64,000 nucleotides of DNA, taken from positions 434,001 to 498,000 of the forward strand of contig NZ_CP085524.1 in the NCBI RefSeq assembly GCF_004353525.1, given 5' to 3'. This document shows positions 54,800-56,403 of this stretch, one piece after another. Both the position numbers and the translations under genes were made by a program. Source of the stretch: Zhaonella formicivorans (GTDB lineage: Bacteria; Bacillota; DUOV01; Zhaonellaceae). The number at the start of each line of letters is the position of its first letter. Positions within the stretch are counted from its first letter, which is position 1. The notes beneath the pieces were generated by a model, which had not been told where the DNA came from, did not search any database, and saw only the letters and a program-made list of their open reading frames with translations.

Positions 54800-54967
54800 T
54801 TAATCGTTGACACTAGGGCGAAACATGTCCAATACTCCTAAGACTACATGGGCGAGGCCAAAACCAACCACACCTGCTCCTATACTCCCTTTGAGCAACG
54901 TTGCCCCTACGCCCGTTACCGCAGCGCCAAGCCCGGTCACTACCAAGCTTGTTGTGTTAGCATTCAT
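54800..54967 (-). CDS. Small conserved-looking hydrophobic protein, 55 residues
   Basis: A minus-strand frame giving M-N-A-N-T-T-S-L-V-V-T-G-L-G-A-A-V-T-G-V and, after a glycine-rich hydrophobic middle, GFGLAHVVLGVLDMFRPSVND. ATG 54967 has a strong ribosome site AGGAGGTGC eight bases upstream. The pattern of Gly-rich hydrophobic helices ending in D-M-F-R-P is one I have seen in short unnamed Clostridial proteins. Function unknown; probably membrane-associated. Confidence 0.7.
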   Translation of the reverse strand: MNANTTSLVVTGLGAAVTGVGATLLKGSIGAGVVGFGLAHVVLGVLDMFRPSVND

Positions 54968-55117
54968 ATTTTTAAGCACCTCCTGTATTAATTTTTCCCG
55001 CGTTAGCTGTAATTAATCAATTTTAAAATTAATTTCTAAAATTAATTTAGAAGGAAATTGCTCTACACTACTGGTAAGTAGAAAAAAATGAGTTATAATA
55101 AAAATATGGTTTAATAT

Positions 55118-55275
55118 AAAAGGTCCGTTAGGTGAGGTTACTGCACAAACAGATGCTACTGCCCTGAAACATCGAGAGATGCCAAAGGGTTAGCAGGTAA
55201 TATCGGCTTAAGGTGTTACCTAATGTAGCTGGTTTAACCTACGTTGTGCAAAGCCAAAGCTGTCACGAGTGGGGA
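55118..55275 (+). promoter_or_regulatory. M-box (ykoK) magnesium riboswitch
   Basis: The M-box core is present in order: CGTTAGGTGAGG, GCTACTGCCC, CATCGAGAGATGCCAAAGGG, AAGGTGTTACC, GTAGCTGG and GCAAAGCCAAAGCTGTCACG. Mg2+ binding compacts the aptamer and favours the following terminator. A TATAAT at 55094-55099 is a plausible promoter element. Downstream is corA. Confidence 0.93.
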
Positions 55276-55296
55276 GTATGCTCCGGTTTTTGCTCT

Positions 55297-55319
55297 TCTC
55301 CACCCAGTGGGGATTTTTT
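55297..55319 (+). terminator. M-box-controlled terminator
   Basis: TCTCCAC (55297-55303) pairs with GTGGGGA (55307-55313), then TTTTTT. Bases 55269-55276 (GTGGGGAG) can pair instead with the 5' arm as antiterminator. Confidence 0.85.
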
Positions 55320-55355
55320 ATTTTCGAATTCTGTCAAAAATGGAGGTGGCCAAGC

Positions 55356-55442
55356 ATGGACGACCCTGACGCGGACTTAAAAATTATTTTTAGGGAACAA
55401 TTGAATAGCGGAGGGCCGTCTTTGTCAACTTGGTTGCTGTAA
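55356..55442 (+). CDS. Acidic/proline leader peptide upstream of corA, MgtL-like
   Basis: A 28-codon frame with a strong ribosome site (GGAGGTGG) encodes M-D-D-P-D-A-D-L-K-I-I-F and ends S-L-S-T-W-L-L. It lies between the M-box terminator and corA. Alternating acidic residues and Pro at the start resemble the E. coli MgtL leader (M-E-P-D-P), where such a stretch destabilises the ribosome in low Mg2+ and controls mgtA. Its 3' end is part of a hairpin that affects the corA ribosome site. That it is translated is inferred. Confidence 0.6.
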   Translation: MDDPDADLKIIFREQLNSGGPSLSTWLL

Positions 55443-55464
55443 GATGGCCCTCCTGATGGGAGGG
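55410..55464 (+). promoter_or_regulatory. Mutually exclusive hairpins over the corA ribosome-binding site
   Basis: Hairpin 1 pairs 55410-55422 (inside the leader ORF) with 55441-55453 over 13 bp. Hairpin 2 pairs CCCTCC (55448-55453) with GGAGGG (55459-55464), the corA ribosome site. The shared 55448-55453 segment means only one can form; a ribosome on the leader would decide which. Confidence 0.6.
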
Positions 55465-55470
55465 AATATA

Positions 55471-56403
55471 ATGATTGAAGTATTTTACACAGTTGGAGAT
55501 GAAACAATAACCACCACCAGCTTGCAAGAGAAAGGCAGCTGGATTAGATTAACTGAACCAACGAAAGAAGAACTGCTCCGGGTAAGCGCCGAAACAGGTG
55601 TATTGCTGGAATTTTTGGAAGCTCCCTTAGATGACGAGGAACGGCCCAGAATAGAAGTTGAAGATGGACAGGTCCTGATGATTGTCAATATACCTATCGT
55701 GGTGCAAAACGGGACTGTAAAATATGATACGTTGCCTTTAGGCATAATAGTCACAGAAAATCATATTATCACCGTTTGCCTGGAAGAGAATGCGGTTATC
55801 AATGACTTGGTAGCCGGAAGGTTAAAATCCTTTTACACTTATAAAAAAACTAGACTTACACTGCAGATCCTCTATAAAACTGCGACTTACTTCCTCAAGT
55901 ATTTAAAGGAAATAGACCGTAAATCCAATGAGATTGAACAAGCGCTGCACGGTTCCATGCAAAATGAGGAACTGATTAGGTTGCTAAACCTTGAAAAGAG
56001 CCTGGTATATTTTACTACTTCCCTGCGTTCTAACGAGATTGTCATGAAAAAGCTTTTGCGCACTAAAGTTTTGAAAATGTATGCGGAAGATGAAGATCTT
56101 TTGGAAGATGTAATTACGGAAAACGCCCAGGCTTTGGAAATGAGCGAGGTCTATAGCAACATAACGAGCGGGATGATGGATGCTTTTGCTTCAATCATTT
56201 CCAACAATTTAAATATTGTAATGAAATTTTTAACCTCTATAACGATAATTTTGGCAGTACCAACCATGGTTGCCAGCTTTTTTGGAATGAACGTGCCACT
56301 GCCTTTTCAGAATTCTCCCCATGGCTTCCTAATTACTATAGTTATTTCCCTGTTTTTAGCCATGGTAGCTGTTTTGGCTATGGCTCGGAAAGAAATGTTT
56401 TAA
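55471..56403 (+). CDS. corA: CorA-family magnesium transporter
   Basis: Pentameric Mg2+ channel of the inner membrane. About 310 residues: an N-terminal cytoplasmic alpha/beta domain, a long stalk helix region (about 150-240) and two C-terminal helices. The ion-selectivity motif F-G-M-N lies at the end of the first helix, followed by the acidic-free loop VPLPFQNSPHG. ATG 55471 is chosen because GGGAGGG is six bases upstream; the frame is open from 55444. Regulated by the upstream M-box and probably by the leader. Confidence 0.93.
   Translation: MIEVFYTVGDETITTTSLQEKGSWIRLTEPTKEELLRVSAETGVLLEFLEAPLDDEERPRIEVEDGQVLMIVNIPIVVQNGTVKYDTLPLGIIVTENHIITVCLEENAVINDLVAGRLKSFYTYKKTRLTLQILYKTATYFLKYLKEIDRKSNEIEQALHGSMQNEELIRLLNLEKSLVYFTTSLRSNEIVMKKLLRTKVLKMYAEDEDLLEDVITENAQALEMSEVYSNITSGMMDAFASIISNNLNIVMKFLTSITIILAVPTMVASFFGMNVPLPFQNSPHGFLITIVISLFLAMVAVLAMARKEMF

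Follow-up and report, generated by a model that had tools for sequence, protein, structure and literature searches.

A putative leader-peptide attenuator behind the M-box riboswitch of corA in Zhaonella formicivorans, and related leader peptides before Mg2+ transporter genes of Firmicutes

M-box riboswitches with a terminator halt transcription when Mg2+ is high. In the stretch of Zhaonella formicivorans DNA analysed here (64,000 nucleotides, hereafter the window), such a device stands before the Mg2+ transporter gene corA, and between the two lies a 28-codon open reading frame (ORF) with a strong Shine-Dalgarno (SD) sequence of its own and the start M-D-D-P-D-A-D. Is the same ion read a second time on this message, by the ribosome that translates the leader ORF? 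Mg2+ leader peptides of the IRD type are known to act by Mg2+-dependent pausing or drop-off of ribosomes, which is countered by bL31, and a preliminary description of the locus proposed a translation-coupled checkpoint stacked after the riboswitch.

The aptamer, the terminator and the leader ORF with its ribosome site were all confirmed, in the order given by this description (Table 1). The aptamer gave 142.4 bits with the covariance model RF00380, the gathering score of which is 44, and its terminator platform lies ahead of a Mg2+ transport gene, as expected of an M-box. The product of corA shares 73% identity with that of a relative from the same family, and its nearest named relatives belong to Peptococcaceae-like Clostridia and Formimonas. 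The promoter scan found no sigma-70-like promoter inside 54950-55600 and so gave no hint that the leader ORF is transcribed separately. Just upstream of the M-box and divergent from corA, a 59-residue Gly/Ala-rich hydrophobic ORF was noticed on the minus strand (54800-54979). Two peculiarities were met in corA loci of relatives, namely a match to Group-II-intron RNA (RF02001, 55.9 bits) that precedes the M-box of corA in locus L004 (595-762) and, in the same family, a corA lying in two frames with internal stops (G001:C117:2593-3515, loci L005/L185), which is either a contig error or a pseudogene.

Table 1. Features of the corA leader and gene, in coordinates of the window
Feature	Position	Strand	Basis
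M-box (ykoK) Mg2+ riboswitch aptamer	55117..55280	+	RF00380, 142.4 bits, E 3.6e-32
Intrinsic terminator, M-box expression platform	55297..55322 (stem 55297-55313 and T run)	+	Terminator scan, fold
Shine-Dalgarno of leader ORF, GGAGGTGG	55342..55349	+	Sequence; kept in two sister genera
Leader ORF, 28 codons, MDDPDADLKIIFREQLNSGGPSLSTWLL	55356..55442	+	Translation; start kept in relatives
Codons M-D-D-P-D-A-D, candidate ribosome-destabilising/stalling N-terminus	55356..55376	+	Third codon positions free, residues kept
RNA region 1, predicted partner region 2 (55412-55425)	55354..55367	+	RNAalifold on three family members; -15.3 kcal/mol; set-level test
RNA region 2, inside leader ORF; predicted partner region 1 or region 3	55410..55426	+	Folds, complementarity, alignment
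RNA region 3, anti-SD CCCTCCT, overlaps leader stop codon; predicted partner region 2 or 4	55441..55454	+	Folds, complementarity, alignment
RNA region 4, corA Shine-Dalgarno GGGAGGG	55458..55464	+	Sequence, complementarity, folds
corA, Mg2+ transporter, 310 aa	55471..56403	+	Pfam PF01544 (CorA), 190.9 bits

The acidic, proline-containing start of the leader peptide is kept in all three genera of the family (MDDPDADL, MDDPEADL and MDDPDADL), each leader ORF retaining a strong SD and a start codon. The genus, family, order and class of the source hold at most three genomes, the class comprising just three, and the comparison was therefore carried out at the level of the phylum, for which CorA relatives with their upstream regions were fetched from genome contigs and from 398 genomes. 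A survey blind to the peptide collected SD-preceded ORFs of 8-60 codons within 320 nt before corA in 157 non-redundant leaders, with SD-preceded ORFs elsewhere in the fetched loci and in the window as the background. Starts of the form M[DE].{0,2}[DEGS]P were found in 37 of 131 such ORFs in corA leaders and in none of the 678 elsewhere, while M[DE] starts made up 73/131 and 45/678, respectively. Typical leaders begin with MDDPDADL, MDDPRLC, MDDPGTSR, MDGDPSK, MEGDPGS, MDSDP, MDSGP or MDDHPD, and M[DE]xDP-like starts occur across the phylum. About half of the fetched corA leaders contained no detectable ORF of the acidic/Pro kind.

When leaders are compared inside the MDDP group or inside the M[DE]xDP group, identity is 100% at codon positions 1 and 2, partly by the definition of the groups, and only 52% at position 3; the freedom of the third position shows that the letters of the peptide are kept rather than those of the RNA. 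From residues 2-6 to residues 7-14, the share of acidic residues falls from 39% to 6% and that of Lys/Arg rises from 1% to 21%, the first figures being inflated by the regular expression used for selection. The C-termini show no mutual resemblance, and a search with five leader peptides gave no match to a curated NCBIfam family. Like IRD-type leaders, these ORFs are short, have an SD of their own and immediately precede a Mg2+ transporter gene, and they too carry acidic residues and proline within the first few codons, conserved at the level of the peptide. After the acidic/Pro start, serine encoded by AGT is frequent at residues 6-8 of corA leader peptides (16/71 leaders at residue 6, 20/71 at residue 7) and is followed by a Lys/Arg-rich stretch.

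The link of such peptides to Mg2+ transport was also obtained from the opposite direction. A blind search of the 398 genomes for AGGTGN{3,9}RTGGANRGNGAYCC, corresponding to the M[DE][SGR]DP pattern, produced 31 matches, compared with 8 for the reversed pattern that served as control; the strict MDSDP pattern gave a single match. Short ORFs directly before corA (17), mgtE (3) or the gene of an MgtE_N/CBS/PRC protein (1) accounted for 21 of the 31, and the other 10, about the number expected from the control, lay mostly within longer reading frames. Among the 17 corA cases is a second CorA subfamily with M[DE]GDP leader ORFs (loci L191-L196); ORFs of the same form precede mgtE in loci L200, L201 and L213 and the PRC + MgtE_N + CBS protein gene in L197. 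Two further observations concern the possible range of these ORFs. An MDGDP-starting ORF of 20 codons is separated by 76 nt from a downstream ABC-F ATPase gene of the Uup/EttA-like type (locus L219, G190:C95, reverse strand 1510-1572); ABC-F factors are of the kind that rescues ribosomes on Asp-Pro and acidic motifs, and a self-regulating loop would be striking, although this is a single instance at the rate of chance matches. In addition, corA leaders from metagenome-assembled genomes of Synergistota (L056, L059, L066, L075) contain the ORFs MDSNSPSPSPEP, MDAGGPSH and MDASGPSPEQTGP, perhaps representing the same device beyond Firmicutes.

The M-box and the leader ORF were each found without the other. 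Among the 64 non-redundant leader-ORF loci of the structure tests, the Rfam scan detected an M-box in 18, including that of the window, and none in the others scanned; a few near-duplicates of scanned loci were classed by a simple motif search. The mgtE loci L200 and L201 also have M-boxes. Each of the three family genera has the M-box together with MDDP(D/E)ADL and corA, and an M-box without a detected leader ORF was also seen, for example, in locus L022. Either device can therefore stand with or without the other, and the leader ORF is one in its own right, in most cases having no M-box before it. The idea of a checkpoint stacked after the riboswitch is supported by the conserved ORF and the helices considered below, with the correction that stacking is not the usual state of this leader.

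The RNA between the leader start and corA can form three helices. Helix 2:3 joins 55410-55422 with 55441-55453 (13 bp, -24.7 kcal/mol), and helix 3:4, the hairpin that would mask the corA ribosome site by pairing with its SD, joins 55448-55454 with 55458-55464 (-12.3 kcal/mol). Both need the CCCTCC arm at 55448-55453 and are mutually exclusive for this reason. The preliminary description had recognised these two hairpins and their common arm, placing the pairing of 3:4 one base off (55448-55453 with 55459-55464) and missing a further exclusive helix, 1:2, between the leader start codons (GCATGGACGACCCT, 55354-55367) and 55412-55425 in the ORF. The latter helix (-15.3 kcal/mol) was found by RNAalifold on three family members (the window, G002/L004 and G001/L185). 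When the leader is free, its fold of lowest energy contains both 1:2 and 3:4, and the corA SD is masked. Withholding region 1, as a ribosome on codons 2-7 would do, changes the fold to 2:3 and frees the SD, and withholding both regions 1 and 2 returns it to 3:4 with the SD masked again. The predicted accessibility of the SD in the ensemble starts from 0.01 in free RNA, rises to 0.87 when a ribosome sits on region 1 (the MDDPDAD codons) and drops to 0.00 once the ribosome has moved beyond region 2, these figures referring to equilibrium folding and leaving cotranscriptional kinetics and tertiary structure out of account. The leader RNA is thus predicted to be an attenuator built of 1:2, 2:3 and 3:4; its last helix would hide the SD of corA, and the position of the ribosome would choose, as judged in silico, between the alternative folds.

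Compared with shuffled sequences, the local fold is only moderately unusual (z -2.8), and the decisive tests were the comparative ones and those with synonymous recoding. When the leader ORF was recoded synonymously 400 times with matched G+C, no recoding reached the real switch in the window or in G002 (0/400 each) and 5/400 did so in G001, the three leaders differing in sequence. Across the phylum, 15 of 58 non-redundant leaders had p<=0.05, where about 3 would be expected, the leaders being related, and the mean of the set exceeded all 60 null sets. The effect is modest (mean A-F 0.05 vs -0.02 in the null). An initial accessibility test, comparing full with truncated leaders, was null, since it took free RNA as the ON state, and free RNA is OFF owing to helix 1:2; the test re-specified with three states was positive, its phylum-wide result being only partly blind because helix 1:2 of the window had been seen beforehand. 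Taken together, the modest effect and the null outcome of the initial test suggest that in many of the more distant relatives the leader may be organised differently (Rho, terminator or coupling).

Complementarity tests, which need no partition function, agree with the recoding. The mean for the 2:3/3:4 chain was -8.4 against -2.4 in shuffles (sd 0.5, 0/100), for 1:2 -8.9 against -6.3 (sd 0.3, 0/200) and for the whole chain -4.9 against -1.4 (sd 0.5, 0/200), and because the leaders of these sets share ancestry, the figures are not strict probabilities. No 2:3/3:4 chain was found in about half of the leaders tested. In the aligned trio of family members, both sides have changed at three pairs of 2:3, and 89.7% of cells pair, whereas with a slid partner the value never exceeds 61.5%; an equally good result came from 32 of 500 column shuffles, so that with three sequences this alignment is weak taken alone. 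On the whole, the hairpin arms foreseen at the outset have been maintained while both of their sides changed, and to a far greater degree than synonymous recoding would permit. The two comparative checks proposed in the preliminary description, on the D-D-P start and on the hairpin arms, both came out in its favour.

Several known systems resemble this leader. The closest precedent is above all mgtQ of the Salmonella mgtCBR operon, in which the exposure of the mgtB ribosome-binding site is governed by early Asp/Glu codons together with the stems 1:2, 2:3 and 3:4, and a ribosome on region 1 favours 2:3 and the translation of mgtB (PMC8092293). Both are short, early-acidic ORFs before a Mg2+ transporter gene, with 3:4 masking the ribosome site and control at translation, in the case of corA by prediction, but mgtQ has 8 codons, lies between mgtC and mgtB and belongs to enterobacteria, whereas the leader of the window has 28 codons, follows an M-box in front of corA and belongs to a Firmicute; it is a likeness of logic. 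In E. coli, ribosomes decoding the Glu-Pro-Asp-Pro of MgtL drop off at low Mg2+ and mgtA is expressed (PMC11282234). MgtL of E. coli and Salmonella shares with our leader the acidic/Pro N-terminus (EPDP) and the choice between alternative RNA folds (PMC11282234, PMC11552253), differing in that its output is transcription (Rho-dependent termination in Salmonella) and not the masking of an SD, as predicted for corA here. In its features, the corA leader of the window combines a peptide like MgtL with an RNA topology like mgtQ. The short ORF corL in the corA leader of E. coli and Salmonella is also Mg2+-responsive, its translation being inversely related to corA expression (PMC11552253), but it works through Rho-dependent termination, starts with UUG, has few acidic or Pro residues and has no M-box. 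In trp-type attenuators, the position of the ribosome on region 1 likewise decides between 1:2 + 3:4 and 2:3; there, 3:4 is a terminator and the signal is tRNA charging, whereas here 3:4 would hide a ribosome site and the proposed signal is Mg2+.

The precedent for stacking is the M-box of Mycobacterium tuberculosis pe20/rv1535, followed by a conserved, translated uORF2 with SD/anti-SD/anti-anti-SD pairing; there, the M-box controls the uORF translationally, the targets are not corA, and no acidic/Pro attenuator is described in the available part of that paper (PMC12810186). The stack of M-box and leader before corA had been presented as apparently undescribed. A literature search, which covered few subscription journals, came upon no account of a leader peptide of the acidic/Pro type before corA or mgtE of Firmicutes, nor of one stacked behind an M-box with corA as its output; such leader peptides in enterobacteria (mgtL, mgtQ, corL) and an M-box/uORF stack in Mycobacterium are already known.

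Computation supports the conservation of the ORF, the constraint on its peptide, the three exclusive helices and a masking of the SD that depends on ribosome position. We consider it likely that the corA message passes two serial Mg2+ checkpoints, the M-box with its terminator and then a leader-peptide attenuator that unmasks the SD at low Mg2+. At high Mg2+, the former would stop the transcription of corA, and transcripts escaping the terminator would meet the latter, acting on translation. On free RNA, 1:2 and 3:4 would mask the SD and keep corA off. A ribosome held at M-D-D-P-D-A-D, or dropping off there, would cover region 1, allow 2:3 to form and turn corA on, and one reading smoothly past region 2 would leave region 3 to mask the SD, with corA off. 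At low Mg2+, the acidic/Pro N-terminus would be decoded slowly or abortively by intrinsic ribosome destabilisation, as in MgtL and MgtQ, so that the second step, like the M-box, would switch corA on when Mg2+ is low. The stalling of B. subtilis ribosomes at Asp-Pro in cells without EF-P (PMC11381351) speaks for such a hold at these codons. That Mg2+ is the trigger, that the switch has this direction in vivo and that the ribosome drops off or pauses we infer from these analogues, and the leader peptide itself would, on the same grounds, respond to Mg2+. Reinitiation could also contribute, the leader stop being so close to corA.

Other readings of the same leader were weighed against this one. 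The attenuator might be set off by another trigger, a shortage of charged tRNA-Asp or tRNA-Pro or a low activity of EF-P or ABC-F holding the ribosome on region 1. The conserved codons are indeed those of Asp and Pro, Asp-Pro stalls ribosomes of B. subtilis without EF-P and YfmR relieves this (PMC11381351), and Salmonella mgtP responds to charged tRNA-Pro (PMC8092293). We nevertheless regard such a trigger as unlikely, for the blind pattern search led to Mg2+ transport genes and not to amino-acid genes, and the leaders usually have one Pro only and may carry Glu or Gly in place of Asp (MEGDP, MDSGP), which misfits the sensing of a single tRNA.

It is quite improbable that the leader ORF merely feeds ribosomes to corA by translational coupling, with reinitiation after the TAA at 55440 and constitutive translation. 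The stop lies 28 nt ahead of corA, and in the window two in-frame ATGs, at 55444 and 55456, might be used for reinitiation; these codons are missing from the two sister genera, and reinitiation at them was set aside on account of this lack of conservation. Moreover, the distance from stop to start ranges from about 4 to more than 100 nt, and neither the acidic/Pro starts nor the tuning of synonymous codons to three exclusive helices would be expected of coupling. A device of RNA alone, in which the ORF start is kept for the 1:2 pairing and peptide and translation are irrelevant, seems very improbable. The GAY GAY CCN codons of MDDP leaders do pair with GGGTYGTC in region 2, and RNA accounts for part of the conservation of the start. 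Against this, the peptide motif also occurs in leaders that have no 1:2 helix and other nucleotide sequences (MDGDP, MESDP, MDSGP), Asp is coded freely by GAC or GAT and Pro by four codons, and every ORF retains a strong SD and a start codon.

Returning to the two serial checkpoints and to the leaders of the phylum, we are inclined to believe, with somewhat less assurance than for the window, that a phylum-wide family of Mg2+-responsive, ribosome-destabilising M-[D/E]-x-D-P leaders controls corA and mgtE of Firmicutes, perhaps of Synergistota too, by translational attenuation, independently of the M-box and stacked behind it in about a quarter of cases. A few enterobacterial leaders are the known instances in which intrinsic destabilisation of the ribosome serves to sense Mg2+. 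If the reading is true, one ion would be read twice per mRNA, as a ligand of RNA and through the stability of the ribosome. This suggests that such sensing is widespread in Gram-positive-type bacteria, on both corA and mgtE, and that evolution stacks it onto a classical Mg2+ riboswitch. It also provides a motif for the peptide and a grammar for the RNA, both open to testing in dozens of genomes, and a natural setting in which to ask why a cell should measure one ion twice.
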